In this document: positions 10,491-31,581 of the stretch, in pieces
How positions within the stretch are numbered: position 1 is the stretch's first letter
Layout of the letters: the number at the start of each line of letters is the position of its first letter
Assembly (NCBI GenBank): GCA_001464065.1
Contig: LNDN01000024.1
Coordinates: 1-48,119 of the forward strand
Reading direction: 5' to 3'
Length of the DNA: 48,119 nucleotides
DNA from: Acidobacteria bacterium Ga0077522
Lineage (GTDB): Bacteria > Acidobacteriota > Vicinamibacteria > Vicinamibacterales > Vicinamibacteraceae
Made by a program: the position numbers and the translations under genes
Notes under the pieces: generated by a model
Seen by the model: only the letters and a program-made list of their open reading frames with translations
Told to the model about the DNA's origin: nothing
The model's database searches: none

Positions 10491-11173
10491 AGGTGTGTGC
10501 GCTCGTGCCGGCGTACAACGAGGCCCGGACCATTGCCACCGTGGTGCACGGGGCAACGGCGCACGTCGCGCAGGTGCTGGTGGTCGACGACGGGTCCACC
10601 GATGGCACGGGGGAGGCGGCCGCGGCCGCTGGGGCGGACGTCATGCGTCTCGCCCACAATGGCGGCAAGGGCACGGCCATTCGCGCCGGGCTGTCGCAGG
10701 TGTTTGCCGGCACCGCGACGCACGTGCTCTTCATGGACGGCGACCTCCAGCATCGTCCGCAGGAGATTCCGGCGCTGCTCGCGGAAGCGGCGGCCACCGG
10801 CGCGGCGATGGTGATCGGTGAGCGCGTCTTCGTACGCGACGAGATGCCGGCGTCCCGCTACTGGGCGAACGTGATCGGGAGCTGGGCGCTGGCGACGTTG
10901 ATGGGTGTGGACCTGACCGATACGCAGTCGGGATTCCGGGTCGTGCGGACCGACGTCCTGCGGCAGTTGCCGCTCGAGGCGACCGGCTACGAGTTCGAGA
11001 CGGAGCTCGTGGTGAAGCTGGCGCGCCGCGGCGCCCAGATCGCCCGCGTGCCGATCAAGGCCGTGTACGGCGCAGAGAAGAGCAAGATCCGCCCCGTGCG
11101 CGACACGACGCGCAACATCATCCTGGCCCTCGTCTACCGGTTCTTCCGTCGCGGCGGACGAGGCCCGGCATGA
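10487..11173 (+). CDS. family 2 glycosyltransferase (dolichyl-phosphate-mannose-synthase-like)
   Basis: 228-residue GT-A fold enzyme. The N-terminus MKVCALVPAYNEARTIATVV is the nucleotide-sugar binding strand. VVDDGSTDGTGE and LFMDGDLQHRPQEIPAL (DxD at about residue 85-87) bind the diphosphate and metal, and DTQSGFRVVRTDVL is typical of the DPM1/GtrB-like subgroup. It lacks TM helices and so acts at the cytosolic membrane face. Its ATG overlaps the MMPL stop, and its TGA overlaps the acyltransferase ATG, so the three genes are translationally coupled. In aryl polyene clusters a similar enzyme is thought to glycosylate the head group; the sugar and acceptor here are unknown. Confidence 0.92.
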   Translation: MKVCALVPAYNEARTIATVVHGATAHVAQVLVVDDGSTDGTGEAAAAAGADVMRLAHNGGKGTAIRAGLSQVFAGTATHVLFMDGDLQHRPQEIPALLAEAAATGAAMVIGERVFVRDEMPASRYWANVIGSWALATLMGVDLTDTQSGFRVVRTDVLRQLPLEATGYEFETELVVKLARRGAQIARVPIKAVYGAEKSKIRPVRDTTRNIILALVYRFFRRGGRGPA

Positions 11174-12159
11174 GCCTCGCCGCGCCGGTGCGCTGGGTTA
11201 CCCACCGTCTCAACGGGTCCTTCATCGTCGGTGGCAGTTATCTGGGATCGCGGTACGCCCCGCTGCCGCTGTCGTGGCCGGTGGCCCACGCGGGCGCCTG
11301 GTTCGTCAGCCACACGATGGCGAGTGTGCGGGATGCGCTGGTCGACAACCTGCGCGCGGTCTTCCCGCAGGAGTCCGACGACCAGTTGCGGCGGCGTGCC
11401 TACCGCACGTGTCACACGTACACGGACGACTGGATGGACTTCATGCGATCGCTGTCGTGGTCGCGCGAGAAGGTCCTCGAACGCTTCGTCTACGAGGAGG
11501 CCCATCACCTGAAGGACGCGCTCGCGCTCGGCCGGGGCGCGATTCTGGTGACGGGCCACTTCGGCAACTGGGAAGCTGGCGCGGTGCTGATGAAGGCCCT
11601 GGGCGTACCGCTCACCGTGGTCGCCATGCCGGAGGCCGATCCCGCGGTCAACTGGCTGCGACACCGCGTGCGCACGTCGCTCGACGCCGACACCATCGAA
11701 GTGCGGCAGTCGCTCGACACCCCGTTGCAGATTCGTCGTCGCCTGTCGGAGGGCCGGGCCGTCGCGATGCTGATGGATCGGCATGTGGCGCGCGACCGCG
11801 TGCCGGTGACCATGTTCGGCCGCGAGGCGCACTTCATGGGGGCCCCGGCGATGCTGGCGTATCTGACCGGCGCGCCGCTGGTGCCGATCTTCCTCGTGCG
11901 CGAGGGCCGCGGCCGCTTCCGCGCGCGACCGCACGAGCCGATCCTCGTCGATCGAACGGGGCAGCGCGATCTCCAGGTGCGGGCCACCGCGCAGCGCGTG
12001 GCCACGCTGCTCGAACGCGAGATCGAGAAGCGGCCCGACTGCTGGTACCAGTTCTATCGCTACTGGGAAGCACCGGGAGTCGGGAGTCGGGAGTCGGAAG
12101 TCGGGGGGCCGGAGTCGGAAGTCGGGACGCCGGAGTCAGGCATCGGGGATCCGGCCTGA
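11170..12159 (+). CDS. LpxL/HtrB-like lipid acyltransferase with repeat-encoded tail
   Basis: 329-residue member of the lipid A biosynthesis acyltransferase family. The catalytic HX4E motif is in ILVTGHFGNWEAGAVLM (about residue 130). VAMLMDRHVARDRVPVTMFG and APLVPIFLVREGRGRFRA are further family blocks, and WYQFYRYWE marks the normal C-terminal end. The last 25 or so residues (GVGSRESEVGGPESEVGTPE and beyond) are encoded by a degenerate GGGAGTC heptamer array and are not part of the fold. The start overlaps the glycosyltransferase stop as ATGA; the next gene starts immediately after the TGA. Such acyltransferases in pigment clusters are proposed to attach the polyene acyl chain to a lipid anchor. 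Whether it acts on lipid A itself cannot be told. Confidence 0.9.
   Translation: MSLAAPVRWVTHRLNGSFIVGGSYLGSRYAPLPLSWPVAHAGAWFVSHTMASVRDALVDNLRAVFPQESDDQLRRRAYRTCHTYTDDWMDFMRSLSWSREKVLERFVYEEAHHLKDALALGRGAILVTGHFGNWEAGAVLMKALGVPLTVVAMPEADPAVNWLRHRVRTSLDADTIEVRQSLDTPLQIRRRLSEGRAVAMLMDRHVARDRVPVTMFGREAHFMGAPAMLAYLTGAPLVPIFLVREGRGRFRARPHEPILVDRTGQRDLQVRATAQRVATLLEREIEKRPDCWYQFYRYWEAPGVGSRESEVGGPESEVGTPESGIGDPA
12075..12140. repeat. degenerate GGGAGTC heptamer array inside the acyltransferase 3' end
   Basis: Three exact GGGAGTC units at 12075-12095 are followed by GGAAGTC, a GGGGGGCC interruption, GGAGTC, GGAAGTC, GGGACGCC and GGAGTC. It is translated as the low-complexity tail of the acyltransferase and stays in frame to the stop. 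Confidence 0.8.
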
Positions 12160-13236
12160 ATGGACCCGATCTCGCACCTGCTCTTCGCGCGCATGGTCGC
12201 CGCGACGCGGACGTCGCACGTGCCACGCGGCGTGGTGGCGGCAACGGTCCTCGGCGGGCTGGCGCCCGACATCGACGCGGCCGTGATGGCCGTGGGCTGG
12301 GACGTGTACCTGCAGTGGCACGAGGTGGGTACGCACGCACTCGTGGGGACGCCCGTGGTGGCCCTGGCGACAGGCGCGTTCGTGCGGACGTGGGCGCGTG
12401 CGGCACCGCTGAGCGCGCTGGTCTTCGGCGCCTGGCTGGGCACGCTCAGCCATGTGTTCTTCGACCTGTTCTCCGGCGCCACGATCCGGCTGTTGTGGCC
12501 GGTGTGGTCGGCGCCCATCTCGGCACCGGTCGTGGCGATGGCCGACCCGATCGTCATCGCCGTCCTCATCGTCGGCGCGCTGGCCTTGTGGGTGTGGCCG
12601 CGGGTGCCACGCACAGCGGCGGCGCTGGTGATGGCACTGCTGGCGCTCGTCAGTGCCGTCAAGCTGACGACGCGGGCGCGCGCGGCGGCCGCCTACGGCG
12701 CGGCGGTGACGGCCGCGGGCACCGCGCCGCCCGAGTCCATGGCGGTCGAGGCCGAGTGGGGCTCATGGACGGGATGGCTGTTCTTCGACCGCCTGCCGGA
12801 CGGCCAGCTGCGCGCCTGGCGGGTCGATGGCTGGACGCGGGACGCCCGCCTCCGTTTCGCGCACGCCCCCGCCAGCGACGCGCCGTTCGCTCGCCAGTCG
12901 CTGACCGACTTCGCCACGGCACGCAACTTCGTCCCCGTCCACCCCTTCGCGTTCGCGTCGGCGCGCGACAACGGCAACGGCGGCGTGGTGTTCTGGTCGG
13001 ACGCCCGCTTCTGCTGGACACCGGCCGAACGGGCCGATGCGCAGGACGACGTCCCACACCAGGACGTACGCCCGGCCCGCGGCCCCCTGCGCTGCGCGCT
13101 GTGGTTCGGCGGCTCGTACGACGCCGACGGGCGTCCCCACGAGGCCCTCGTCTGGCTTGGCGGCCATCTCCAGCGCCGATCACCAGGGCGATGGATGCTC
13201 GAAGGACGGAGGACCGAGGAGGGAGGACGGAGGTAG
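12160..13236 (+). CDS. YdjM-like (DUF457) inner-membrane metal-dependent hydrolase family protein
   Basis: 358 residues. The N-terminal half (1-175) has the family signature MDPISHLLFARMVAA (His near the N-terminus), a PDID motif (GGLAPDIDAAVM), WHEVGTHALVG and GTLSHVFFDLFSGATIRLLWP, with about four TM helices. The conserved His/Asp residues face the membrane and resemble the metal site of the YdjM/LexA-regulated hydrolase family. The C-terminal half (about 180-345) is a soluble domain I do not recognise. The last residues (EGRRTEEGGRR) are encoded by the start of the purine-rich repeat that follows. The gene begins directly after the acyltransferase stop, so it belongs to the same operon. 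A role in lipid handling is inferred from context only. Confidence 0.8.
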   Translation: MDPISHLLFARMVAATRTSHVPRGVVAATVLGGLAPDIDAAVMAVGWDVYLQWHEVGTHALVGTPVVALATGAFVRTWARAAPLSALVFGAWLGTLSHVFFDLFSGATIRLLWPVWSAPISAPVVAMADPIVIAVLIVGALALWVWPRVPRTAAALVMALLALVSAVKLTTRARAAAAYGAAVTAAGTAPPESMAVEAEWGSWTGWLFFDRLPDGQLRAWRVDGWTRDARLRFAHAPASDAPFARQSLTDFATARNFVPVHPFAFASARDNGNGGVVFWSDARFCWTPAERADAQDDVPHQDVRPARGPLRCALWFGGSYDADGRPHEALVWLGGHLQRRSPGRWMLEGRRTEEGGRR

Positions 13237-13350
13237 GACGGAGGGGCGAGGACGGAGGGGCGAGGTGGAAGGACTTCTCAGTGGCACTGACCTCTCACCT
13301 CTGACCTCCGTCCTACCTCTTTCCTCTTTCCTCTCTCCTCCGTCCTCTCG
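13201..13350. repeat. purine/pyrimidine heptamer repeats in opposed orientation
   Basis: The left half (13201-13265) is built from variants of GGACGGA and GGGGCGA in alternation; the right half (13291-13350) from CTTTCCT, CTCTCCT and CCGTCCT. Both show a 7-bp step. A perfect 15-bp inverted repeat links 13230-13244 with 13305-13319 across a 60-bp spacer. It lies between two convergent genes and could fold into a long hairpin that ends transcription in both directions. Confidence 0.7.
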
Positions 13351-13355
13351 GGTGA

Positions 13356-14339
13356 TTACCGCCCTGGGGGTTTCTGCCGCCAGTAGGACGCGAGGACGCT
13401 GCCGGCGGCGTTCATCCACGGGCCGAAGATCGCCGCCGCGAGGCCGGCGTCGGTGCTGTGCAGCACGCTGATGGCCAGGCCGGAGGCCATGCCGGCGTTC
13501 TGCAGGCCGACCTCGATCGACGCCGTGCGCGAGTCCGATTCGTTGAGCCCGGCACCGCGCGCGCCCCAGTAGCCCAGCGTGAAACCGATCAGGTTGTGCA
13601 GCGCGACGACCGCGAACAGGGTCGCCGCCACGGCGAGCAACTGGTCGCGCGAGTTGGCCGTGATGATCGTGATGATGGCCGCGATGGCGATCATCGACAC
13701 GAGGGGCAGGATGCGCGGCATCCAGCGTTGATCGCGCAGCAGCTTGTTGAAGACCAGCCCCGCGATCACCGGCAGGATGATCATCTTCATGATCGAGATC
13801 ATCATGTCCCAGGCATCGATCGGCACGAAGCGACCGGCGAGCAGCTGCATGGCGAGAGGCGTCAACACCGGCGACAGCAGCGTGGAGCACGCCGTCATCG
13901 TCACCGACAGGGCGACGTTGCCGCCGGCGAGGTAGGTCATCACGTTGGACGCCACGCCACCGGGCGCCGCACCCACGAGGACGACGCCCGCGGCGACCTC
14001 GCCCGTGAAGCCGAACAACCGCGCGAGCGCGTAGCCGGTGATCGGCATCACGCAGAACTGCAACAGGATGCCGACGAGCACCCCTCGTGGCATGGCCAGC
14101 ACCCGGGCAAAGTCACCGAGGCTCAGCGTGGTGCCCATCCCGAACATGATGATCTGGATGAGCGGGACGATGAGCCCGGTCAGCTTGTAGCCGCCCACCG
14201 TGAGGAACAAGCCGGGGTGGAACATCGCGGCGGCGACGCACGTGAAGACCACGGCGGTGAAGGTCAGGCCGGAGAAGCGAGCCGAACGACTCACCCAGAA
14301 CGACAGGGCGGCCAGCGCCCCCAGCACCAGGATGCTCAT
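13356..14339 (-). CDS. bile acid:sodium symporter (BASS/SBF) family transporter
   Basis: 327-residue inner-membrane protein with about nine or ten TM helices. Family features are FGMGTTLSLGDFARVLAMPR (about residue 66), GVVLVGAAPGGVASNVMTYLAGGNVALSVT (the conserved PGG...SN...AxGN substrate/Na+ site), VLTPLAMQLLAG, and SIEVGLQNAGMASGLAI. BASS proteins carry bile acids, 2-keto acids, pantoate or similar organic anions with sodium. In this cluster it might import or export an organic acid precursor, but nothing in the sequence fixes the substrate. TAGACT lies 9 nt before the ATG at 14339, so the mRNA is probably nearly leaderless. The gene ends 5 bp inside the repeat region shared with the convergent YdjM-like gene. 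Confidence 0.92.
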   Translation of the reverse strand: MSILVLGALAALSFWVSRSARFSGLTFTAVVFTCVAAAMFHPGLFLTVGGYKLTGLIVPLIQIIMFGMGTTLSLGDFARVLAMPRGVLVGILLQFCVMPITGYALARLFGFTGEVAAGVVLVGAAPGGVASNVMTYLAGGNVALSVTMTACSTLLSPVLTPLAMQLLAGRFVPIDAWDMMISIMKMIILPVIAGLVFNKLLRDQRWMPRILPLVSMIAIAAIITIITANSRDQLLAVAATLFAVVALHNLIGFTLGYWGARGAGLNESDSRTASIEVGLQNAGMASGLAISVLHSTDAGLAAAIFGPWMNAAGSVLASYWRQKPPGR

Positions 14340-14348
14340 CGGCTCCAG

Positions 14349-14354
14349 AGTCTA
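14349..14354 (-). promoter_or_regulatory. -10-like box of the BASS transporter gene
   Basis: TAGACT on the minus strand, 9 nt before the ATG at 14339, with no Shine-Dalgarno between. No clear -35 was seen. Confidence 0.35.
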
Positions 14355-14385
14355 GTCCGTCCGGGCCCGTCGGCGTCAGCGCCGA

Positions 14386-15555
14386 TCAGCGACCGTCGGT
14401 GCGCACGCCGGCGCTGATGAGGACGTTGGCGAAGGGCGTGCCGTCGCCCATGGGCTGGACGTGCGGGGCGAAGCCTTCCTCGTACAGCAGCCGGCGCCAG
14501 TCAGCCTGCGACCGGAAGTGGAAGCGCTGACGCCAGCGACCCGTCACCAGGGCCTTCAGCGTGTTGCCGAGGCGCACCATGCGGAAGCGCCATCCGGCAT
14601 CGGCATCGGCCTCCCGCACGAGCAGACGACCAGTCGGCGGCATGGCGGCACGAATGGCCTTGAGCAGTTCGCGCTGATCGGCCTCAGGCATCATGTGCAG
14701 CACGTCGAACAGCAGCACCATGTCTGCGTGCGGCAATCCAGCCTCCCGCGCATCGCCGGTCAGGACCTCGGCCTCGTGCTCGAGGGCTCGCACGGCGATC
14801 CCGGCGACGCGTGGACGGAGTTCGACGCCGACGAGCCGGGCGAACTGCGGCGGGTCGGGTCGGGTCGTGTCCCAGGTGCCCTGCGCCGCCGTGTCCTGGG
14901 CTTCCGCGACCAGCGCGAGGGTGAGGCCCTGCCCGCAGCCGATGTCGAGCAGCGTGCCCGTGGCTGCCGGAAATTCGGCAGTCAGCGCCGCGGCGTAGAC
15001 GGGATCGCCCGAGAGCTTGCCGCGGGCGAACTCCCACGCGGTGATCCCCGAATCGAGATAGCGGTCGCTCGCGCGACGCACCAGGAGCTGGAAGAACGGG
15101 TCCCTGGCCGGCCGGCGCGCCGCATATGTCACGAAACCGCCCATCGCGCCCACGATCACTCCGACGACGACGCTGCCGACCACCAGGTCGGCGCCGAACT
15201 CCCAGATGCGGTCGGGGGTGAGCATGTCCCAGGCGAGCGTCAGGAAATGCCCACGCCGCACGAAGGATCCCGTCTGGACCTCGGCGTAGAAGAGCGGTGG
15301 GACGATCAGGGGATTGATGACATTCGCGGCGAGGTACATCTTCAGGCGGTTCAGGCGAAAGGCGACACCCGCCAGCCAGCACAGCCCGAAATGGACGCCC
15401 CAGAACGGCGTGCACCCGACCATGAGGCCGACGCCGATGGCGACCGACTCGCGCCCGCGCGTGTCGCCCTCGGTCCGCAGCGCATGGATGGCGCGCTGCA
15501 GGCGGGAGGCCCGCGACAGCGCGCGCGCGCTGCCGGCCAACGGAACCGTGGTCAT
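14386..15555 (-). CDS. DUF2062 membrane domain fused to a class I SAM-dependent methyltransferase
   Basis: 389 residues. Residues about 15-155 match DUF2062 (ESVAIGVGLMVGCTPFWGVH, AANVINPLIVPPLFYAEVQ, then two more hydrophobic helices ending GVIVGAMGGFVTYAARR). Residues about 175-385 are a methyltransferase: LLDIGCGQGLTLALVAEAQD is motif I, GVELRP and LTGDAREAGLPHADMVLLFDVLHMMPEADQ hold the following SAM-binding acidic residues, and PPTGRLLVREAD the later strand. The C-terminal part (RFHFRSQADWRRLLYEEGF) is also typical. Both functions occur as separate or fused genes in aryl polyene and xanthomonadin-type loci. The likely task is membrane-anchored methylation of the aryl head group, which is inferred. 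It diverges from the chorismatase gene and has CATAAT 8 nt before its ATG. Confidence 0.88.
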   Translation of the reverse strand: MTTVPLAGSARALSRASRLQRAIHALRTEGDTRGRESVAIGVGLMVGCTPFWGVHFGLCWLAGVAFRLNRLKMYLAANVINPLIVPPLFYAEVQTGSFVRRGHFLTLAWDMLTPDRIWEFGADLVVGSVVVGVIVGAMGGFVTYAARRPARDPFFQLLVRRASDRYLDSGITAWEFARGKLSGDPVYAAALTAEFPAATGTLLDIGCGQGLTLALVAEAQDTAAQGTWDTTRPDPPQFARLVGVELRPRVAGIAVRALEHEAEVLTGDAREAGLPHADMVLLFDVLHMMPEADQRELLKAIRAAMPPTGRLLVREADADAGWRFRMVRLGNTLKALVTGRWRQRFHFRSQADWRRLLYEEGFAPHVQPMGDGTPFANVLISAGVRTDGR

Positions 15556-15562
15556 CTTCAGG

Positions 15563-15569
15563 TATTATG
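15563..15569. promoter_or_regulatory. overlapping divergent -10 boxes, methyltransferase / chorismatase
   Basis: The heptamer TATTATG reads TATTAT (15563-15568) on the plus strand and CATAAT (15569-15564) on the minus strand. The minus-strand box is 8 nt before the ATG at 15555, giving a leaderless message. On the plus strand there is no start codon that close in the right frame, so the chorismatase would have a leader of about 35 nt. Confidence 0.45.
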
Positions 15570-15609
15570 ACGGCTCGTCCCGCGCAGCCGGATGCGGGGT
15601 CGTGCAGTG

Positions 15610-16524
15610 ATGCCAAAGACCACGGTCACGACGCCAATCGCGCTTGCGCCGCTTGCCCCGCTGCCACCCTCCTGGGTGGATGCCCTGGTGGGTCCCAGCC
15701 CTTCGGTCTCTCGTACAGACGCGCTCGATGGCACCGTCGAGGTGCGCACCGGTCCCGACTTCACGCACGTCGCCATCACCATCCCGCAGGCGCACACGCT
15801 GCCGCCGGATCGACTGCACGAGCACGTCCGCGACGCCTACCTCTCGGTGGCGGCCACCCTGAACGCGCAGCAGCGGCACCCGGTGCGGTTCTGGAACTTC
15901 GTGCCACACATCCACACGCCGTCGGGGGCTCACCTCGACCGCTACATGATCTTCAACGGCGGCCGGTTCGCCGCCTGCGAGCACTGGCACGGGTCGCCCA
16001 ACGACTTCGATCACACGCTGGCCGCGGCCTCGGGCGTCGGCGTGCTCGGCGAAGCCCTCGCGATCCACTGCCTCGCCGCAGACGATGCCGGTGAGCCCGT
16101 CGAGAATCCGCGGCAGGTCCCGGCCTACAAGTATTCGCGGCGGTATGGCCCCCGCCCGCCCTGCTTCGCGCGCGCCACGCGCCTCGCACGCCAGGTGAAC
16201 GGCGCGTGGTGGCTGCTCGTGGCCGGCACCGCGAGCATCTGCGGCGAGTTGACGGTCCACGCCGGTGACGTCGAGGGCCAGACCGTGGAGACCCTCGACA
16301 ACCTCGACGCGCTGCTCGCCGCCGCCGAGGACAAACGCGGCGCCAGTGACGCGCGTGCCCGCTTCTCCAGCCTGCGCGTCTACATCGTCCGTCCCGACGA
16401 TCTGGGCGTGGTGCGCGATCGGATCGCGGCGCGCTATGGCGAGATCCCCGACATCGAGTTTGCGCAGTCCGAGTTGTGCCGCGCCGATCTCCTCGTCGAG
16501 ATCGAAGGCATCGCCGAACTGTAG
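15610..16524 (+). CDS. chorismatase family protein (FkbO/Hyg5/XanB2-like), hydroxybenzoate-forming candidate
   Basis: 304 residues. Family landmarks in order are HPVRFWNFVPHIHTP, LDRYMIFNGGRFAACEHW, AASGVGVLGEALAIHCLA, VENPRQVPAYKYSRRYGPRP followed by PCFARATRL, LLVAGTASICGELTVHAGDV and EGQTVETLDNLDALL. These match chorismatases, which hydrolyse chorismate to a dihydrodiol or form 3-/4-hydroxybenzoate; XanB2 supplies the aromatic starter of xanthomonadins. Which outcome applies cannot be decided by eye. In this cluster, with an AMP ligase nearby, a hydroxybenzoate product is the natural guess. The ATG at 15610 is preferred because GGGGT lies about 10 nt upstream; an in-frame ATG at 15592 would add six residues. 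The stop codon TAG is itself the beginning of REP-like copy 2. Confidence 0.87.
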   Translation: MPKTTVTTPIALAPLAPLPPSWVDALVGPSPSVSRTDALDGTVEVRTGPDFTHVAITIPQAHTLPPDRLHEHVRDAYLSVAATLNAQQRHPVRFWNFVPHIHTPSGAHLDRYMIFNGGRFAACEHWHGSPNDFDHTLAAASGVGVLGEALAIHCLAADDAGEPVENPRQVPAYKYSRRYGPRPPCFARATRLARQVNGAWWLLVAGTASICGELTVHAGDVEGQTVETLDNLDALLAAAEDKRGASDARARFSSLRVYIVRPDDLGVVRDRIAARYGEIPDIEFAQSELCRADLLVEIEGIAEL

Positions 16525-16542
16525 CGGCCGGACGTGTCCGGC
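16521..16542. repeat. REP-like palindrome, copy 2
   Basis: GTAG, then GCCGGAC, GT, GTCCGGC with perfect 7-bp arms. Its TAG is the stop codon of the chorismatase. It lies in the 40-bp gap between convergent genes and may act as a hairpin terminator. Confidence 0.6.
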
Positions 16543-16564
16543 AGGCAGGTCGTCCGGCCTCGGC

Positions 16565-16993
16565 TCAGCGCGACGGCACGTCGGCCAGCGTCAGGCTGCC
16601 CCTCGCCACGAGGACGCCATCGGCCGTCACCGTCCCTTCGATCTTGAACAACCCGCCCATCCGACCGACCACCCGCGCCTGCGCCTCGAGGACGACGTCC
16701 GTGCCACATCCGGCCGGGAAACGGAAGCCGTCGACGGCCGCGACACGCAGCGCCCGCGGCTGATGGGGTTCCCCTGGACGCGACGTGCCCGCCGCGAGCC
16801 CACCGGTCTGCGCCAGCAGCTCGATCAGCACGATGGCCGGCACGACCGGCTGGCCGGGAAAGTGGCCCTGGAAGTAGAAGTCGTCGGCGCGGGTCAGGCG
16901 ACGGCAGACCGCCTGCTGTCCCGGCTCGACGGAGACGACCTCCTCGACCAGGCGCATCGGCGGCGTGTGCGGCAGCAGCGAGAGATACTCCAC
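16565..16993 (-). CDS. 3-hydroxyacyl-ACP dehydratase, hotdog fold (FabZ/ApeI-like)
   Basis: 142-residue single hotdog domain. The active-site block is DDFYFQGHFPGQPVVPAIV (His at about residue 44 in GHFPG, the FabZ signature), followed by LIELLAQTGGLAAG where the conserved Glu sits on the long central helix. The C-terminal strands read FRFPAGCGTDVVLEAQARVVG and FKIEGTVTADGVLVARGSLT. It would dehydrate 3-hydroxyacyl-ACP to the enoyl form, and in a polyene pathway without an enoyl reductase this leaves conjugated double bonds. The start is GTG at 16993, just 23 bp from the divergent ligase start. The N-terminus YLSLLPHTPPMRLVEEV is standard for FabZ/FabA-like proteins. Confidence 0.9.
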   Translation of the reverse strand: MEYLSLLPHTPPMRLVEEVVSVEPGQQAVCRRLTRADDFYFQGHFPGQPVVPAIVLIELLAQTGGLAAGTSRPGEPHQPRALRVAAVDGFRFPAGCGTDVVLEAQARVVGRMGGLFKIEGTVTADGVLVARGSLTLADVPSR

Positions 16994-16997
16994 GGCT

Positions 16998-17003
16998 TAT
17001 CAT
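16998..17003. promoter_or_regulatory. possible shared divergent -10 box, dehydratase / ligase
   Basis: TATCAT (16998-17003) faces the ligase ATG at 17017 with 13 nt between. On the minus strand the same bases read GATGATAA, 3-5 nt before the GTG at 16993. The whole spacer is 23 bp, so both genes must be read from overlapping promoters or from promoters inside each other. Confidence 0.35.
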
Positions 17004-17016
17004 CGCCCACGGCCGC

Positions 17017-18495
17017 ATGACCTCCCACTCCCCCATCGCCGAGGCCTTTGCCAGCGTGCTGCGCGACCGCGGCGATGACACGCTGCTGATGGCGCCGAGC
17101 GAGTCGCTCGTGCTCTCGGCGCGCACGCTCGACGCGCTGGCCATTTCACTGTCGACCGCCCTCGCCCGAATCCCGCTCGCCCCGGGCCACCTCGTCATCA
17201 CGAGCCTCGGCAACGCCGCGGTGATGCCGGCCGTGACGCTGGCCTGTCTCCGCGACCGCCTGCCACTGATGCCCGCGGATCGCAGCGTGCCGGTGGCCGA
17301 GCTCCTCGCCCTCGCCACCCGGTGGGACGCGGCCGCGGTGATCGCGCCCGAGGGCCTCGACCTGCATGCCGGCGGCACGGGGCCCGCCGACCCGACACGC
17401 GCACGGGTGCGGATGCCGATCGGTCACGGACTCGCCGCCTGGGTCGCCGCCGCGCTGCCAGCGCCGGGCCGACACGGCGCCGCGGCCGTGTTGAAGCTCA
17501 CCTCCGGCAGCACCGGCGCTCCTCGCGCCACCTGCACCGAGGAACGGCACCTCGTGGCTGACGTGTGCCACATCGTCGAGGCGATGACGATCGGTCCGCG
17601 CACACCGCAGTTCGGCGTCATTCCGCTGTCGCACTCGTACGGGTTCAGCAACCTGCTCCTGCCGCTGCTGTGGCAGGGCACGCCACTGCTGGTGCGCCCG
17701 CAGTTCGTCCCGACGCAGGTGGCGCCGGACATCGTGTCGGCGCGACTCGAGACGTTCGCCGGGGTGCCGTTCATGTTCGAACACCTCGCCGCCCACCAGG
17801 CGCTGCCGCCGCTGCCGTCTCTGCGCCTGGTCCTCTCGGCCGGCGCGCGCCTGTCGTTCGAGGCCGTGACCGCGTTCCACGCCGTGACCGGGCTGAAGGT
17901 GCGGTCGTTCTATGGGTCGAGCGAAACCGGTGGCATCTGCTTCGACGACAGCCCGCGGCTGGACGCGCGTGTCCCGGTGGGGCGTCCCATGGGCGCCACC
18001 CGCGTCGATCTCGTGGCCGACGCGGACGCCCCCCAGGGCACGGGTCGCATTCGCGTCTCCGGCCCGAACGTGATCGATCGGTATGCCGACGACGAGGGGC
18101 CGCACCTCGGCGGGACGTTCCTCACGGGCGACTACGGGCGCGTCGAGGCCGATGACACGTACGTGCTGGTGGGACGCGTCGCGTCGTTCGTCAACGTGGC
18201 GGGACGCAAGGTCGTGCCGCAGGAGGTCGAGGCGGCACTGCGCGCCCTGCCCGGCGTCTCGGACGCCGTCGCCCTCGGCATCGACGATGCGGTGCGGGGC
18301 CAGGCGCTCGGCGTGTGCCTGGTGAGTGAGGCCCCGTGGACGGCGCGCACGGTGCGGGAGGCGCTGGCCCCGCACCTCGCCCCGTACAAGCTGCCGCGCG
18401 TCGTGGTGGTCACGCGAGCCCTGCCGCTGACCGACCGCGGCAAGGTCGATCGCGCGGCGATCGCCCAGCTGCTGGCGCGCGCGTCTGCGTCGTGA
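17017..18495 (+). CDS. AMP-dependent acyl/aryl ligase (ANL superfamily)
   Basis: 492-residue adenylating enzyme that would activate a carboxylic acid, probably the hydroxybenzoate starter, and transfer it to CoA or the ACP. Visible motifs are LKLTSGSTGAPRAT (ATP loop, about residue 160), PLSHSYGFSN, RSFYGSSETGG (A5), GTFLTGDYGRVE (A7 Asp), GRVASFVNVAGRKVVPQEVE (A8 hinge) and ALPLTDRGKVDR with the C-terminal catalytic Lys. It is slightly short for the family because the N-terminal subdomain is compact. Similar ligases sit in aryl polyene loci next to the chorismatase or ammonia-lyase step. It is the last gene of the cluster and ends facing the osmC-like gene. Confidence 0.9.
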   Translation: MTSHSPIAEAFASVLRDRGDDTLLMAPSESLVLSARTLDALAISLSTALARIPLAPGHLVITSLGNAAVMPAVTLACLRDRLPLMPADRSVPVAELLALATRWDAAAVIAPEGLDLHAGGTGPADPTRARVRMPIGHGLAAWVAAALPAPGRHGAAAVLKLTSGSTGAPRATCTEERHLVADVCHIVEAMTIGPRTPQFGVIPLSHSYGFSNLLLPLLWQGTPLLVRPQFVPTQVAPDIVSARLETFAGVPFMFEHLAAHQALPPLPSLRLVLSAGARLSFEAVTAFHAVTGLKVRSFYGSSETGGICFDDSPRLDARVPVGRPMGATRVDLVADADAPQGTGRIRVSGPNVIDRYADDEGPHLGGTFLTGDYGRVEADDTYVLVGRVASFVNVAGRKVVPQEVEAALRALPGVSDAVALGIDDAVRGQALGVCLVSEAPWTARTVREALAPHLAPYKLPRVVVVTRALPLTDRGKVDRAAIAQLLARASAS

Positions 18496-18537: not shown

Positions 18538-18930
18538 CTACGCGAGGCGCGTCTCGGACGCCGCGCCGGCCTTCAGCAGCTTCGCCACCGGGCACGCCTC
18601 GGCAATCTCGAGCAGGCGCGCCTTCTGCGTGTCGTCGAGCGCACCGGTCATCGTGAGGTGCTTGACGAACGCGGGCGTCGGCTGCGCCGTGTACTCGACC
18701 CGGACGGTGAGGCCGTCGAGCGACCAGCCCTTGCGGCCGGCATACATCCGCAGGGTGATGGCCGTGCAGGCCGCGAGGCTGCCCGACAGCAGTTCCATGG
18801 GGGTCGGCGCGGTATCCGTGCCGCCAACCGTGACGGGTTCGTCGGCCGCGAAGGCGTGCGTGCGCGTCGTCACCGACGTCTGGTAGCCATTGCCCAGGGT
18901 GGCGGTGGCGTCGAGGGTCCGGGAGCTCAT
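18538..18930 (-). CDS. OsmC/Ohr family peroxiredoxin-like protein
   Basis: 130 residues. OsmC-fold thiol peroxidases reduce organic hydroperoxides with two cysteines. Both are present: SLAACTAITLRMYAGRKGW (about residue 55) and IAEACPVAKLLKAG (about residue 112). PTPMELLSGSLAAC is the family's helix-start motif. The start is ATG at 18930; a GTG codon directly before it is in frame but gives no better spacing. It is the last gene of a minus-strand run after the DinB protein (12-bp gap). It may detoxify lipid peroxides, but its substrate is not readable from sequence. Confidence 0.9.
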   Translation of the reverse strand: MSSRTLDATATLGNGYQTSVTTRTHAFAADEPVTVGGTDTAPTPMELLSGSLAACTAITLRMYAGRKGWSLDGLTVRVEYTAQPTPAFVKHLTMTGALDDTQKARLLEIAEACPVAKLLKAGAASETRLA

Positions 18931-18942
18931 CACTCCAGCCTA

Positions 18943-19425
18943 TCAGCCGACGAGCTTCTTCAGGATGGCGATCTGCCCGCCGTGATAGGCGAGGTGCTGC
19001 ACGACGCCGGAGACGGTCTGAGCGTGCGAGACACCGGTGCCGAGCGCCGGGTTGCGCGCATCGCCGACCAGATCGTCCCAGCGCGCCTCCGGAAAGGCCG
19101 CGACGGCTTCGGTGAGATGCGCCATCGCGTTGGCGAGCGCGAGATGCATCGCGAGCCAGCCGGCTTGATCCGTCGCCCGCGGCAGCGGCCAGTCCCCTTC
19201 GATCGGATCGGCCGCGTCGTGCCCCGAGAGGCGGCGCGTGACCTCCGCGACCCACGAGGTCATGTGGGCGACGATGGCCGCGATGGAATGGATGCCGGCC
19301 GGAGGGGTCGCCATGGCCTGTGCCACGGACACGTCGGCGAGCAGGTGCGTGATCGACGAGCCGTGCCACGGGTCGCCATCGAAGGCGCGATGGAGTTCGT
19401 CGACGAGGATGGACGTGCGCGTCAT
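18943..19425 (-). CDS. DinB superfamily protein
   Basis: 160-residue four-helix bundle of the DinB/YfiT type. Three metal-ligand His positions fit the family: IAAIVAHMTSWVAEVTRRL (about residue 54), and HLAYHGGQIAILKKL near the C-terminus with two. These proteins often act as bacillithiol- or mycothiol-dependent transferases or as metal hydrolases, but many are uncharacterised and no specific role can be given here. The start codon overlaps the stop of the PD40-GGT gene (ATGA), and osmC follows, so the three form one operon. Confidence 0.88.
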   Translation of the reverse strand: MTRTSILVDELHRAFDGDPWHGSSITHLLADVSVAQAMATPPAGIHSIAAIVAHMTSWVAEVTRRLSGHDAADPIEGDWPLPRATDQAGWLAMHLALANAMAHLTEAVAAFPEARWDDLVGDARNPALGTGVSHAQTVSGVVQHLAYHGGQIAILKKLVG

Positions 19426-22355
19426 CGTGTCACCGCCACGGCATGGTGTGAGCGCCTCGGCTCGGCTCCGGCCTCGAGGCGTCCGGTCGTGTTGTCGAAC
19501 TGCAGCACGGCGGCGTAGCCGTAGCGCAGTTCACCCTTGCGTCCCACCTTCTGGAAATGATGCCCGCGCGACGCCAGGTCGTCGAGGACCGCGCCGGGGA
19601 AGCGATCCTCGATCTGGATCCGGGGCCTGAGCCCGGCAGGATCCGCGGGGTCGCGCCCGATGAGCATGCGGGGCGCCTCGATGGCCGCCTGCGCCCCGAG
19701 GCCGCCATCGACGTGACCGAGGATGATGCCGTAGACCGAGGCGGTGATCCACGCATTGCCGGCGGCGCCGACCGCGAGTCGTGGCTTCAGGGTGCCGTTG
19801 ACGTCCTCGCACACGAGCGTCGGGGCACTGGTCGAGGACGACCGCATCAGTGGCAGGAGTTGCCCGTACGCACCACGCACCGTGCGGTAGCCGCGCAGGT
19901 GGTTGTTGTAGAGGAAGCCGAGCCCCTTCGAGACATAGAAGTTCCCGCCCCATGTCGACAGCGTCTGCGTCAGGACGATGACGTTGCCGGCCGAGTCACC
20001 GACCGCGAAGGCGGTGGTGCCGCGGCCGATCCGCTCGCCCTGCCCCTGGCCGACCGCGTCGGCATCTTCGGCAAACGGGGCCGCGCGGGTCGGGTCGATG
20101 CGCCCGAACAGCGTGGCGGCGTGGGCCGGATCGAGATGCGGCGCGACGTCGATGGGCCAGAGGGCCGGGTCGGCGACGCGGCGCAGCGGGTCGCGCACCT
20201 TCCACGCCTCGATGACGTGGTGCAGGTAGTCGGGCGTGTGCGGTGCCACGGCCCCGCGCGGCACGTCGTAGCGATCCAGGATCTGGAGGGTCTCGACCAG
20301 GGCGGTTCCCGTGGCCACCGGCGGCGGCGTGCCGAAGACCCGCAGACCGCGATAGCGACCGCTGACGGGTGTGCGCTCGATGACCTGGTACTGCGCGAGG
20401 TCCTCGAGGCCGATGATGCCGCCGCTGGCCTCCATGTCGGCGGCGATCCGCCTGGCCACACTGCCGTGATAGAACGCGTCGGCGCCTTCTGACGCAATGG
20501 CGCGGAGCGTCGCCGCGTAGTCGGGGTTGACGAAGCGCTCGCCGGCGCGCGGCACGCGGCCGTTGGGCAGGTAGACCCGCGCCGCCTCCGGATAGCGCTC
20601 GAGCAGGGCGCGCCCCTCCCGCAGCGTCGACGGCAGTGCCTCGTCCAGTTCGTACCCGTTGGCCGCCAGGTCGATCGCCGGGGCCATCAGCTGCGCCCAG
20701 CTGAAGCGACCCGAGCCATAGCGCTTGTGCAGGTGGTCCATGCCGGCGACCACGCCGGGGATGTTGGCCGCGGCAGGACCATCGCCGACGAGTCGACCGT
20801 CGCGGAAGATCGCCGCGTTGGTGAGCGTGGCGTGGATCGGCGACTGATCCTTGTAGTCGATGACGAGCGGCTCGCGCATCCCGTTGAGGAACAGCAGGGC
20901 CATGCCGTCACCGCCGATGCCGGAGGCGTCCGGCTCCACGACGCCGAGCGCGAACGACACGGCGATGGCGGCGTCGACGATGTTGCCGCCCTGGGCGAGC
21001 ACGCGCGCCCCCGCGTCGCTGGCCAGCCGATGCCCGGACACCACCATCGCATCCTGCGAGCTGACCGGCGTCCGCACGAGCGGCTGACGCGCCACGAGGT
21101 CGTCGACCACGCGCTCGAGGTCCTGGCCTGACGTGGCGGCGGCCGCACGCGGCCGCATCTGGTCGCGCAGCGCCTCCCAGGCGGCGGCAGACGGCCCTGC
21201 CTGGTAGTAGAGATCCCGCAGCAGTTGCCAGGTGCGGTCGAACGCCAGCGTCCAGCGCGCGGCGTCGGGCGTGATGGCGCTGGTCACGCCCTGCGCGCCC
21301 GCATCGGGCGGCAGCGGCGCCGGGATGGTGCGCAGCGTGAATCCCTGGCCGCGCTCGAACAGCGGGGGGGCCTCGCCGGGGAGCCGCGCCGGATTGCCGT
21401 TGTAGGCCGGCCACTCCGCGGGCAGGTCGGCCAGCAGCAGGATCCGGCCATCCGGCGACCACGCCGGCTGCGACCGCAGGCGGGACACGAGGATGGCGGC
21501 GCCATCGCTGGCGGCCCGCGCGGTGCGCCCGTCGGCGACGGTGGCGCCCGACGGCACGGCCGCCACCCACACGGCCCCTTCGCCGTCGGTGTTGGACGCA
21601 AAGGCCAGCCGGGCCCCTGCGGGGTCCCACGCCGGGTGCGACTCGCGGCCCCGCGTCGCCGTGACGCGCCAGGGCCGATCGTCGCCCTGACGCGCGCCAG
21701 CGGCCGCCGCACGCGCGTCCATCACCATGCCGCCGCCGTCGAGGGCACGCACCCAGATGTCGTCACTGCCCCGATCGTCCTGGTGGCTGGAGACATAGGC
21801 CACGCGGGTGCCATCTGGCGACACGGCCGGATACTGCTCGTCTGCCGGGGTATCGACGACGACCGCCACGGGCGGCGGTACGCCAGGAGACGACCCGTCG
21901 ACGTTGATGGACATCAGACCCCATTGATCGCGCACGCGCTGCGCGAACACGAGGCGACCGTCGGGGGTCCACGACGGGTGGCGGTCGTCGCCGGGGGTGA
22001 TGGTCAGGCGGCGAGGGGGAGTCCCCTCTTCAGCCACGTAGAGATCGAAGCCGGTGCCGAGGTCGGCGGCAAAGGCCACGCGCCGGCCATCCGGCGCCCA
22101 GACGGGATCGCGCTCGACCGCCGCGGGCGTACCCTCCGGCCACGACGCGAAGACCCGCGGCTCCCCGCCATCGGGCCTCATGGTCCAGATCTGATCGAGC
22201 AGGGAGACGGCGATGCGGGTGCCGCCGGGCGCCCACGCCGGGTCACGGACGGCCGACAGTGGCCCGGCATCCTGCGCGAGCGCAGCGATGTGCAGGCCAC
22301 CGGCCCCCAGGGCGATCAGCGTGACGAGCCGGCCGAGGCGAGAACCCGCGTGCAT
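19422..22355 (-). CDS. PD40 beta-propeller / tricorn-like domain fused to gamma-glutamyltransferase
   Basis: 977 residues, exported (SRLGRLVTLIALGAGGLHIA signal, start ATG at 22355). Residues about 25-330 are PD40/WD40-like blades (DPVWAPDGRRVAFAADLGTG, HPSWTPDGRLVFAQRV, YPAVSPDGTRVAYVSS, HPAWDPAGARLAFAS, QPAWSPDGRILLLADL). Residues about 390-455 (LAFDRTWQLLRDLYYQ, WEALRDQM, DLERVVDDLV) look like the helical C1 region that follows the propeller in tricorn proteases. Residues about 475-960 are gamma-glutamyltransferase: SGHRLASDAGARVLAQGGNI, the self-processing Thr in RGTTAFAVGDSAGN, and AIEAPRMLIGR. The usual TTH motif reads TTA and the SPGG loop reads GAAGN, so activity may be altered. It lies downstream of transketolase and overlaps the DinB gene. 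Likely role: periplasmic peptide or glutathione hydrolysis. Confidence 0.88.
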   Translation of the reverse strand: MHAGSRLGRLVTLIALGAGGLHIAALAQDAGPLSAVRDPAWAPGGTRIAVSLLDQIWTMRPDGGEPRVFASWPEGTPAAVERDPVWAPDGRRVAFAADLGTGFDLYVAEEGTPPRRLTITPGDDRHPSWTPDGRLVFAQRVRDQWGLMSINVDGSSPGVPPPVAVVVDTPADEQYPAVSPDGTRVAYVSSHQDDRGSDDIWVRALDGGGMVMDARAAAAGARQGDDRPWRVTATRGRESHPAWDPAGARLAFASNTDGEGAVWVAAVPSGATVADGRTARAASDGAAILVSRLRSQPAWSPDGRILLLADLPAEWPAYNGNPARLPGEAPPLFERGQGFTLRTIPAPLPPDAGAQGVTSAITPDAARWTLAFDRTWQLLRDLYYQAGPSAAAWEALRDQMRPRAAAATSGQDLERVVDDLVARQPLVRTPVSSQDAMVVSGHRLASDAGARVLAQGGNIVDAAIAVSFALGVVEPDASGIGGDGMALLFLNGMREPLVIDYKDQSPIHATLTNAAIFRDGRLVGDGPAAANIPGVVAGMDHLHKRYGSGRFSWAQLMAPAIDLAANGYELDEALPSTLREGRALLERYPEAARVYLPNGRVPRAGERFVNPDYAATLRAIASEGADAFYHGSVARRIAADMEASGGIIGLEDLAQYQVIERTPVSGRYRGLRVFGTPPPVATGTALVETLQILDRYDVPRGAVAPHTPDYLHHVIEAWKVRDPLRRVADPALWPIDVAPHLDPAHAATLFGRIDPTRAAPFAEDADAVGQGQGERIGRGTTAFAVGDSAGNVIVLTQTLSTWGGNFYVSKGLGFLYNNHLRGYRTVRGAYGQLLPLMRSSSTSAPTLVCEDVNGTLKPRLAVGAAGNAWITASVYGIILGHVDGGLGAQAAIEAPRMLIGRDPADPAGLRPRIQIEDRFPGAVLDDLASRGHHFQKVGRKGELRYGYAAVLQFDNTTGRLEAGAEPRRSHHAVAVTR

Positions 22356-22378: not shown

Positions 22379-24247
22379 TCAGCGTGCGCTGACGAGTCGG
22401 CGAATGGTCTCCGCCAGCGCCCGCGCAGACAGCCCGTTGACGTCCATCAACTCCTCGGGGGTGCCGCTGCGCGGCACGCCGGGCACGGCCACGCGCTCGA
22501 CGCGCAGGCCCTGGGGCGACACCGCTTCGCACACGGCATCGCCGATGCCCCCGGCGGAGTAGTGATCCTCGACCGTCAGGATGAGGCCGGTCTCACGACC
22601 GGCGGCCAGCAGCGTGGCGACGTCGACGGGCTTGACCGAGTAGAGGTCGATCACGCGCACGTGCACGCCTTCGGTAGCGACGGTCTCGGCGGCCTGCAGC
22701 GCTTCGAACACCGTCACGCCGGCGGTGACCACGGTGATCACGTCGGCCGCGGACGACCGGAGCGTCTTCGAGCCACCGACCGGGAAGCTGTCGGTGGGCT
22801 CGTAGATCACCGGCGTCTTCGGGCGGCTGGTGCGGACGTACGCCATCCCGGGATGCGCGGCGGCCTCGGCCATCAGCTTCTCGGTGCTCACCGCGTCGCA
22901 CGGGTAGAGCACGGCGCAGCCCGGCACGCTGCGGAACATCGAGAGGTCTTCGAGCGCCATCTGCGAGGGCCCGTCCTCGCCGATCGAGACGCCGCAGTGG
23001 CTGCCCGCGAACTTGACGTTGACCTGGCTGATGCCCGCCATCCGCACGAAGTCGGAGGCGCGGGTCAGGAAGGCGGCAAACGTCGCAGCAAACGGAATCG
23101 CCCCGCGCGCCGCCAGCCCCATCGCCATGCCGACCATGACCTGCTCGGCGATGAACGACTGGTAGAAGCGCTCCGGGAACACCTTCTCGAACCGATCGCT
23201 GAAGGTCGAGTTCTTGACGTCGGCATCGAGGGCGACGACCCGGGCATCGGCGGCCCCCAGCTTCGCCAGTGACGTGCCGAACGCCTCGCGCGTCGCGACG
23301 AGCTCGCCCTTCGTGTACGTCGGGGGCTCGACCGGGCTGGACGCCTTCGGATCGGGTCGGGCGACCACGCCCGAGGGACGCGCGATGGTCAGCGGGGCGG
23401 CACCGTCTTCGGGCACGAGCTGCGCCTCGAGTTCGGCCACGGCAGCATCGGCCTCGTCGGCCTTGAGCGCCTTGCCGTGCCAGCCGGGCTTGCCCTCCAT
23501 CATGGAGATGCCCTTGCCCTTGAGCGTGCGCGCGACGAGGACCGAGGGCTTGCCCTTGGTGGCCCGCGCCTCGGCAAACGCGGCCTGCACCGCCGCGATG
23601 TCATGGCCGTCGACGACGATGGCGTGCCAGCCGAACGCCTGCCACCGGGCGGCGACATTCTCGGCGTCGTGGCCGAACTGCGTCTCGCGGCTCTGTCCGA
23701 GGCCGTTGAGGTCGATGATGGCGCACAGCGAGTCGACCTGGTGGAACTGGCCGCTCTGCGCCGCCTCCCACACCGAGCCCTCGGCCATCTCGCCGTCACC
23801 GAGCATCACGTAGGTCCGGTAGTCGCTGCCGATGCGGCGCGCGTTCAGCGCCGATCCCACGGCGGCGGCCAGACCCTGTCCGAGCGATCCGGTGGCCAGG
23901 TCCACCCACGGCAGGCGCGGCGTCGGATGACCTTCGAGGTCACTGGTCAGTTCGCGCAGCGTCAACGTGGCTGCCCGCGAGACGATCCCGACCTCGGCCC
24001 AGGCGGCGTACAGCAGCGGCGCCGCATGCCCCTTGGACAGGATGAAGCGGTCGTTGTCGGGCCGCTCGGCATCCTTGGGGTCGTACCGCATCTCGTCGCA
24101 GAACAGCACGGCGACGATGTCGGCGGCCGAGGCGCAGGTGCTCGGGTGGCCGCTGCCGGCCTTGGTGGTGCTGCGCACGGAGTCGATTCGCAGACGGGTG
24201 GCGACGTTGCGCAGGGCGGCTGTAGCGGGTGCAACTGACGGTGACAC
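22379..24247 (-). CDS. tkt: transketolase
   Basis: 622-residue thiamine-diphosphate enzyme of the pentose phosphate pathway in one polypeptide. Visible are AGSGHPSTCASAADIVAVLF and SKGHAAPLLYAAWAEVG (substrate His residues), TGSLGQGLAAAVG, MLGDGEMAEGSVWEAA (ThDP motif GDGEMxEG...), and the pyrimidine domain VVALDADVKNST, FIAEQVMVGMAMGLA (catalytic Glu), HCGVSIGEDGPSQMALED and VEDHYSAGGIGDAV. The start is GTG at 24247 because GGAGG precedes it by 5 nt; the frame is open further upstream, into the neighbouring gene. The length fits the shorter transketolase branch (about 620) rather than the E. coli type (about 660). It starts 22 bp after the DUF255 gene and 23 bp before the PD40-GGT gene. Confidence 0.96.
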   Translation of the reverse strand: MSPSVAPATAALRNVATRLRIDSVRSTTKAGSGHPSTCASAADIVAVLFCDEMRYDPKDAERPDNDRFILSKGHAAPLLYAAWAEVGIVSRAATLTLRELTSDLEGHPTPRLPWVDLATGSLGQGLAAAVGSALNARRIGSDYRTYVMLGDGEMAEGSVWEAAQSGQFHQVDSLCAIIDLNGLGQSRETQFGHDAENVAARWQAFGWHAIVVDGHDIAAVQAAFAEARATKGKPSVLVARTLKGKGISMMEGKPGWHGKALKADEADAAVAELEAQLVPEDGAAPLTIARPSGVVARPDPKASSPVEPPTYTKGELVATREAFGTSLAKLGAADARVVALDADVKNSTFSDRFEKVFPERFYQSFIAEQVMVGMAMGLAARGAIPFAATFAAFLTRASDFVRMAGISQVNVKFAGSHCGVSIGEDGPSQMALEDLSMFRSVPGCAVLYPCDAVSTEKLMAEAAAHPGMAYVRTSRPKTPVIYEPTDSFPVGGSKTLRSSAADVITVVTAGVTVFEALQAAETVATEGVHVRVIDLYSVKPVDVATLLAAGRETGLILTVEDHYSAGGIGDAVCEAVSPQGLRVERVAVPGVPRSGTPEELMDVNGLSARALAETIRRLVSAR

Positions 24248-24269
24248 AAGGACCTCCGGGTCGAGCAGT

Positions 24270-25673
24270 CTACCACGCGGCCGTGACGGCGCCGGCCGGC
24301 CCGAGCGCATGCCAGGCGAGCCCGACCGGTGCACCGAAGGGACCTGCCCCAGCGGCCTCGGAGCTCACGGCACGGAGGATGCGGCGGGCCTCGGCCTGCT
24401 GCCCCGCGTCGTCGGGAAACAGCCGCGTCAGGAGGCGCGCCGCGGCAGCGTTGCCTGCCAGGGGGTAGACCGGATCGGCGAGGCGACCGACCCGGCCGGC
24501 GCCCGCCAGCGAGGCCACCCGATCCTCGATCGCGCCCGAGGCGCCCTGCAGGCGAGCCAGCGTCGTCCGGAGCAGCTCTTCGGCCAGATCGGGATAGACG
24601 TGGTCGTCGCGCCAGGCCGCCGCATCGAGCAGCGCATGCGCCAGCATCATCGCGTCGTCGAGCAGCATCGGGCCGCGGGCCTGGCCCTCGTCGAGGACGT
24701 GGGCGACACCGGATCCGCGGGCATAGGCCACGGGCGCGAGCAGTTCGAGGGCGTCGATGGCCTCCCGCGCGAGCTCGGGCCGATCGAGGGCGACGGCTGC
24801 GGCCAGCAACGCGCGGCAGGCGCGGGCACTGCTGTCGACGAGCACGAGGCGCGGCGTCCCGGTCCACGGGCGCCAGTGCCCGTCAGGGCGACGAAAGGCG
24901 CGCCGGAGGCCGTCCACCAGTCGGTCGAGGCGGGCGACCCACTCAGGGAGGGGCTCGAGCGAGACGGCGCGCGCGAGGACGCCGGCCCACTCGGCCTGAT
25001 CGTCCAGGCGAGCCACGGCCGGGCGGTCGTCGACCGACGGCACCAGCGCCACGACCCCGTCGGCCCGCCAGTCCGGCGAGGCGCCATCGAGGGCGTCGAT
25101 GGTGTCGGCGGCCATGGAGGCCCAGGCCGGGTCGGCCATGGCCGTGGCGTGGGCGAGGGCGAAGAGCGCCGCCGCGGCCGACGGCACGCCCGCCTGACCG
25201 CACGCGCCGGTCGATGGGTCCCGCGTCGCCGAGAGGGCCGCCGCGATGGCGTCGAGGGCGGTGTCGTCGTCGGCAAAGTCCGCGGCGGGCTCTGCCGTGG
25301 CCGACGGGAGGATCCACTGCCCGTCTCGCGCGGCGAAGGCCCGGGCGGCCTCCCTGAGGCGGGCGGCCAGCCCGTCGTCGAGGTGGCTGCCGCCGGTGAG
25401 CGTGTGGCCCTCCGGGGTCAGGACCAGCAGCGAGGGCCAGTGTCCCAGGCCATAGCGGTCGGCGATGTCGGGGCGGCGATCGGCGTCCACGCGGACCGGG
25501 ACGACCGTGTCCGCGATGGCGGCGACGACATCGGGCCTGGCGAAGACGGTCTCGTGGGCGCGCGCCGACGCCGGCGACCAGCCCGTGTCGAGCAGGAGCA
25601 GCACGGGCCGACGTCGTCGCTGCGCGTCGAGGAACGCGGCCGTCTGCCACGGCTGCCAGTCGATGGCGGGCAC
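24270..25673 (-). CDS. DUF255/YyaL-like thioredoxin-fold protein lacking the CxxC motif
   Basis: 467 residues. The first 110 match the thioredoxin-like domain of the YyaL/SPATA20 family (WQPWQTAAFLDAQRRRRPVL, VPVRVDADRRPDIADRYGLG, HWPSLLVLTPEG with the cis-Pro). The site where family members have CHWCH reads GWSPASARAHE, so the redox pair is gone. The rest is helical and corresponds to the alpha/alpha barrel of the family (LVDGLRRAFRRPDGHWRPW, ARGPMLLDDAMMLAHALLDA), but it is shorter than the usual 650-700 residues in total. Function of the family is unknown. The start is GTG at 25673, 20 bp from the divergent isocitrate dehydrogenase start, with CATTAT 6 nt upstream. It is first in a run with transketolase. 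Confidence 0.82.
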   Translation of the reverse strand: MPAIDWQPWQTAAFLDAQRRRRPVLLLLDTGWSPASARAHETVFARPDVVAAIADTVVPVRVDADRRPDIADRYGLGHWPSLLVLTPEGHTLTGGSHLDDGLAARLREAARAFAARDGQWILPSATAEPAADFADDDTALDAIAAALSATRDPSTGACGQAGVPSAAAALFALAHATAMADPAWASMAADTIDALDGASPDWRADGVVALVPSVDDRPAVARLDDQAEWAGVLARAVSLEPLPEWVARLDRLVDGLRRAFRRPDGHWRPWTGTPRLVLVDSSARACRALLAAAVALDRPELAREAIDALELLAPVAYARGSGVAHVLDEGQARGPMLLDDAMMLAHALLDAAAWRDDHVYPDLAEELLRTTLARLQGASGAIEDRVASLAGAGRVGRLADPVYPLAGNAAAARLLTRLFPDDAGQQAEARRILRAVSSEAAGAGPFGAPVGLAWHALGPAGAVTAAW

Positions 25674-31542: not shown

Positions 31543-31549
31543 ACGGCCG

Positions 31550-31575
31550 AGGATAGCATCCGCGGCTGCTACGAT
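31550..31575. promoter_or_regulatory. divergent leaderless promoters, PD40 protein / SDR
   Basis: Minus-strand TATCCT (31555-31550) ends 7 nt before the ATG at 31542. Plus-strand TACGAT (31570-31575) ends 6 nt before the GTG at 31582. The whole region between the starts is 39 bp. Confidence 0.45.
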
Positions 31576-31581
31576 GCCCGG

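Follow-up and report, generated by a model that had tools for sequence, protein, structure and literature searches.

A conserved acidobacterial protein family joining a predicted propeller to a gamma-glutamyltransferase-family domain with changed donor-site residues

We analyzed a 48,119-nucleotide stretch of contig LNDN01000024.1 from Acidobacteria bacterium Ga0077522, hereafter the window, in which translation reveals a 977-residue open frame on the reverse strand (19422–22355, ATG at 22355). This fusion gene encodes, in order, an apparent signal peptide, a predicted propeller, a marginal C1 helical segment and a domain of the gamma-glutamyltransferase (GGT) family. On sequence grounds, we assign its product to the PF01019 superfamily; it is not a GGT sensu stricto, because the defining features that we tested fail, nor is it a tricorn protease, because PDZ and S41 domains are missing. 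With roughly even confidence, we propose that it is an exported, self-cleaving N-terminal nucleophile (Ntn) hydrolase of the GGT superfamily whose donor pocket has been rebuilt. The gene is not a one-off but represents a single conserved family, within a known superfamily, whose architecture is uncommon and whose pocket is changed.

The GGT domain is complete. Pfam places PF01019 (G_glu_transpept) at residues 451–969 (19449–21005, the same strand as all parts of the gene) with 387 bits against a cut-off of 27, spanning positions 2–511 of the 512 in the profile; homology to GGT starts near residue 427, ahead of that bound. PD40 matches the N-terminal part in four stretches (100.6 bits), and Tricorn_C1 (PF14684) matches residues 365–421 (21093–21263) marginally, with 24.3 bits against a cut-off of 24, or 29.8 bits in the genome search. 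Among 19 family members (E ≤ 0.01), PD40 and GGT are found in all and Tricorn_C1 in 16. These assignments bear out an earlier note, made from the letters of the window, which had described PD40 blades and a C1-like helical segment followed by a complete GGT domain where tricorn has its PDZ and serine-peptidase parts; neither PDZ nor S41 gives a Pfam match in the fusion protein at E ≤ 1. The NCBIfam equivalog for GGT, TIGR00066, is missed narrowly (346 bits, cut-off 357.85). Residues 1–27 (22275–22355) form an apparent Sec signal peptide without a lipobox Cys, judged by eye from the translation rather than by a predictor.

Active-site residues and the donor pocket

We aligned 35 fusion rows and 43 stand-alone rows to E. 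coli GGT, whose numbering is used here and which is itself excluded from the counts; fusion rows are defined by a GGT part more than 41% identical to that of the window. Thr780 (20016–20018), the first Thr of the motif GTTAF, aligns with the nucleophile and self-cleavage site Thr391, Thr798 (19962–19964) with Thr409, and Gly866 with Gly483. Each of these equivalents is present in 35/35 fusion rows, as is Gly at position 390.

The donor contacts are changed. In the glutamate complex of E. coli GGT, as set out in the portion of PMC6769717 that covers it, the carboxyl is held by Arg114, Ser462 and Ser463 and the alpha-amino group by Asn411, Gln430 and Asp433. Each of these three alpha-amino contacts is kept in 0/35 fusion rows. 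The Asn411 position is occupied by Ser800 in the window protein (19956–19958; Ser in 34 rows, Gly in one), and the Gln430–Asp433 positions by His819–Gly822 (19890–19901). Position 430 is His in 34 rows and Lys in one; position 433, a column that adjoins gaps and is possibly one place off, is Ser in 23, Gly in 10, Ala in one and a gap in one. Lys502 stands at the Arg114 position (20850–20852; Lys in 34 rows, Leu in one), and every fusion row has a gap at the lid-loop position Tyr444. All 35 rows have Ala for Pro482 and Asn for Gly484; in the window protein, the SPGG loop reads AAGN, with Gly866–Asn867 (19755–19760) at the oxyanion-hole positions.

The earlier note had correctly observed that the autoprocessing Thr is kept while the following His is lost, His393 being Ala in the window protein (Ala in 17 fusion rows, Ser in 17, Gly in one). 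Its description of the SPGG loop as degenerate holds insofar as the motif has changed; the loop is not decaying, since an ending of AGN, its Asn invariant, is a fixed trait of the family, and we rejected decaying motifs in general because the changes are shared across it. Nor is the missing His a special trait. Among stand-alone relatives, His393 is lost in 12/43 and Gly484 in 11/43, with Ala or Asn in its place, so neither loss alone is unusual. The more telling change is the loss of the gamma-glutamyl alpha-amino site, which the earlier note missed. The tested set of R114, N411, D433, S462, T391 and G483 is intact in 24/43 stand-alone rows, and the remaining 19 include several GGT-like groups with changes of their own.

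Published mutants bear on what these replacements may mean. In the part of PMC8062742 that reports them, E. coli D433N loses transpeptidation, keeps 82% of hydrolysis and gains cephalosporin acylase activity, B. subtilis D445A loses transpeptidation and keeps 40% of hydrolysis, E. coli R114K retains 93% activity, and the oxyanion glycines of GGT tolerate Ala. Together with the lost contacts, these data suggest that the alpha-amino group of a gamma-glutamyl donor is no longer read and that hydrolysis is favored, though they are no proof, as single changes leave hydrolysis in the E. coli enzyme.

The protein may act as a gated hydrolase. The signal peptide would direct the precursor to the periplasm or the outside, where Thr780 would cleave the Gly779–Thr780 bond to yield a large subunit, comprising the propeller, C1 and the large part of the GGT domain, and a small subunit. 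Thr780 would then attack an amide, and water, in place of an acceptor amino acid, would release the acyl-enzyme. The donor would be an acyl-amide other than an ordinary L-gamma-glutamyl compound, bound or sieved by a propeller that the C1 helices would fix beside the GGT domain.

Several points weigh against this proposal. The best solved relatives are true GGTs, which rank above cephalosporin acylase 2nlz and CapD. The protein may yet hydrolyze gamma-glutamyl compounds, given the activity that R114K and D433N retain in E. coli. Finally, the 950-residue full-length AlphaFold model, built on a four-sequence alignment, is unusable (mean predicted local distance difference test score, pLDDT, 43.4), and the position of the propeller relative to the active site is not visible in it. 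The solved matches and the mutant activities would both suit a divergent gamma-glutamyl hydrolase, releasing glutamate outside the cytoplasm from gamma-glutamyl peptides or glutathione, with Lys serving for Arg114 and other residues replacing Asn411 and Asp433. Such an enzyme sits less easily with the joint replacement of three alpha-amino contacts in every fusion row, when more than half of the stand-alone rows keep the tested set, and with the missed GGT equivalog cut-off; we consider it unlikely, though of appreciable probability. We find it improbable that the protein is a pseudoenzyme or binding protein, capable of self-cleavage only or of neither activity. The Asn at 484 and the loss of His393 across all fusion rows are what such a protein might show, but a dead site would need none of Thr391, Thr409 and Gly483, which are invariant down to 41% identity, and some of the stand-alone relatives counted above likewise have Ala or Asn at 484.

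GGT-family genes are easily named glutathione enzymes by homology. With the gamma-glutamyl recognition residues gone, the fusion clade is a caution on such naming.

Distribution and descent of the family

The genome counts that follow are lower bounds. Across 396 sampled Acidobacteriota genomes, the fusion occurs in at least 18, of which 17 belong to the window's class and one (G044, where a contig end cuts the gene) to another. Within 193 genomes of the window's class, at least 41 carry the fusion or a fragment, at least 36 of them in one frame over propeller and GGT and the other five partial; the class of G044 contributes at least 2/9 genomes (G044 itself, and G080 with a C-terminal fragment). 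The spread is patchy: the fusion is found in families f1, f2, f3, f10, f12 and f38, and many other families of the class have none among the matches listed. Searching 72,556 plasmid records gave 749 matches, none covering 80% of the fusion protein, and a scan of genome contigs that detects close relatives only returned three loci, all from Acidobacteria. The earlier note took many annotated proteins of identical architecture as something that would refute its reading, and this applies in part. Many genomes do carry the fusion, by way of one origin; the annotated status of the proteins was not seen, and our literature searches found no description of a propeller–GGT fusion.

Our tree comprises 79 GGT-domain rows, 35 fusion and 44 stand-alone, representing 77 distinct sequences (each of the two identical pairs consists of fusion rows). 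The stand-alone rows are E. coli together with best or selected matches and were not drawn at random. Dropped from the count were same-locus repeats (L004, L006, L014, L041, L056–L072), a C-terminal fragment from the second class (L098) and a partial row (L005); fusion rows L027, L083 and L086 end at a contig end. A branch of length 1.01, with support 100/100, sets all 35 fusion rows apart from the others. The root is the midpoint, and clade status for the fusion rows needs a root outside them. As far as the aligned sequences tell, this is one old fusion family with a single origin in the sample. Independent repeated fusions are unsupported, the fusion rows being one group, and a chance fusion or assembly error was rejected, the same frame being present in dozens of genomes. 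Comparing the window with three same-genus copies gave ratios of nonsynonymous to synonymous substitution (dN/dS, NG86) of 0.10–0.13 for the GGT part and 0.14–0.29 for the propeller, rough values at a dS of 0.7–1.0; these low ratios indicate that purifying selection keeps both parts. The fusion clade is common in an abundant, little-studied soil lineage.

At two further loci (G404:C33:2037–3941 and G001:C8:216963–218801), GGT matches begin at query residue 318–323, before the C1 region, and contain internal stops. These may represent a separate C1-type gene beside a GGT, or a broken fusion.

The genome that contains the window encodes further GGT-family genes, one of which, at G000:C356, has a canonical-looking small subunit; the fusion copy is therefore probably not the housekeeping GGT. 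The G000:C356 gene (L005, L006) is split over two frames, reflecting a frameshift in either the gene or the assembly.

Neighboring genes

The fusion gene is flanked by genes on the same, reverse strand. Directly upstream, across a gap of 23 bp, lies a transketolase gene (22379–24334; NCBIfam NF004559, 856 bits, cut-off 488), probably in the same operon. Downstream, a DinB_2 gene (18943–19425; PF12867, 37.3 bits) overlaps the fusion stop codon by 4 bp and is followed by an OsmC-like gene (18538–18933; PF02566, 62.3 bits).

We surveyed 33 fusion loci, 30 of which have at least 500 bp upstream; the loci are related, and the counts are not independent. In 25/30, the gene directly upstream on the same strand encodes a transketolase or a 757-residue thiamine-diphosphate enzyme, and in five (L070, L023, L077, L085 and L087) the slot holds neither. 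The 757-residue enzyme, whose transketolase matches are partial and below cut-off and whose E1_dh match is weak, replaces transketolase in six loci (L061–L064, L066 and L084). Genus g9 shows both upstream states, which points to an in-place exchange. The transketolase linkage provides a concrete pathway clue, yet none of the readings we propose accounts for the pairing of a cytosolic transketolase with an exported hydrolase.

Downstream, DinB follows in four same-genus loci, with OsmC seen in three of them, and an AhpC/TSA peroxiredoxin in 11/33 loci. Several loci encode a P-type ATPase-like protein with a heavy-metal domain there; 18/33 have neither DinB nor peroxiredoxin downstream, some of these having little sequence there. 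In L061 (11904–13253) and similar loci, the ATPase-like protein is short (HMA plus part of E1-E2_ATPase; 449 residues in L061) and appears to be without most of the ATPase core.

The genes for thiol-related proteins that closely follow the fusion gene at some loci would agree with a gamma-glutamyl hydrolase acting on glutathione. They would also agree with an amidase acting on low-molecular-weight thiol conjugates as a member of a thiol/redox operon, for which the window offers the overlapping DinB_2 gene, whose product matches mycothiol S-transferase at 26 bits, below the cut-off of 27, and then OsmC. We regard such an amidase as quite improbable: more than half of the surveyed loci have neither DinB nor peroxiredoxin downstream, the steady neighbor is transketolase, and the pocket gives no support.

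Reasoning by analogy, one might go further and envisage Ntn amidases capped by propellers as a family of their own. In these, the GGT fold would have been re-tooled for an extracellular acyl-amide, with the propeller as substrate filter and with production tied through the operon to the transketolase reaction, a tie kept where the divergent thiamine-diphosphate enzyme took transketolase's place. We offer this picture tentatively and hold it to be possible but doubtful.

Elsewhere in the window, at about 6062–18495, lies a run of ketosynthase, LolA, glycosyltransferase 2, lipid A-type acyltransferase, YdjM, methyltransferase, chorismatase-like (FkbO/Hyg5 N) and AMP-ligase genes, which we take to resemble an aryl polyene or xanthomonadin-type pigment cluster.

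The propeller and comparison with known systems

Residues of about 32–362 (21270–22262) most likely form a single six-bladed, TolB-like PD40 propeller followed by three helices, as the PD40 matches and a structure model suggest. Structure prediction, which the earlier note had proposed as a check, gave a model for the propeller and C1 alone (pLDDT 66.8, predicted template modeling score 0.70) in which three helices follow the propeller; the full-length model was poor, as described above. In a Foldseek search with the propeller model, TolB (1c5k) was matched at E 1.1e-12 and tricorn (1k32) at rank 35 with E 2.5e-9. VIA-align paired the model with a TolB model at Z 24.9 (247 aligned residues, root-mean-square deviation 2.8) and, at Z 23.0, with Pizza6, a designed propeller; tricorn is absent from the 50 rows listed, an absence that excludes nothing. 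Against the NCBIfam equivalog for TolB the sequence scores 63.8 bits, well short of the cut-off of 343.15, and own-genome relatives of the N-terminal part are weak, the best scoring 44.3 bits. The term tricorn-like, which the earlier note applied to the propeller, is apt for the PD40 and C1 modules and less so for the fold, as the protein has one propeller nearest to TolB, tricorn is a lower Foldseek match, and C1 is marginal. A second PD40-repeat protein, of 598 residues, is encoded in the window at 30457–32253 on the reverse strand (PD40, 149 bits).

Propellers serve as substrate filters in tricorn and DPP-IV, and gating of the GGT site by the propeller is by analogy plausible. The fusion offers a testable case of a gate joined to an Ntn hydrolase, its propeller being like those that act as gates in other hydrolases. 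That it is a tricorn-like protease with a swapped catalytic part, working in the tricorn peptide-degradation chain, is very improbable: PD40 and C1 modules are present, but the propeller is single, C1 is marginal, PDZ and S41 are missing, and the same genome encodes a complete, genuine tricorn (1147 residues; PD40, C1 at 72.3 bits, PDZ_Tricorn and S41).

Our proposed Ntn hydrolase can be set beside four known systems. With bacterial GGT (PF01019, MEROPS T03; E. coli 2DBU, B. licheniformis 4Y23), it shares the whole domain, the order of large and small subunits, the nucleophile Thr, Thr409 and Gly483; unlike GGT, it has the alpha-amino contacts, Arg114, the tandem Gly and the lid loop replaced or missing, and it adds an N-terminal propeller and C1. 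Class IV cephalosporin acylases and GGT-like amidohydrolases belong to the same superfamily, and published work ties the switch from transpeptidase to hydrolase or acylase to a change at Asp433; the acylases carry Asn at 433, in contrast to the Ser, Gly, Ala or gap of the fusion rows, and the portion of the source that treats them describes no propeller fusion (PMC8062742). Tricorn protease (1K32) likewise has PD40 repeats and then a C1 helical segment, whereas the fusion has one propeller and a GGT domain and is without PDZ_Tricorn and S41. TolB of the Tol-Pal system shares the six-bladed PD40 propeller and is the best match to that of the fusion in both sequence and structure, although the matches span the TolB propeller and not the TolB N-terminal domain.

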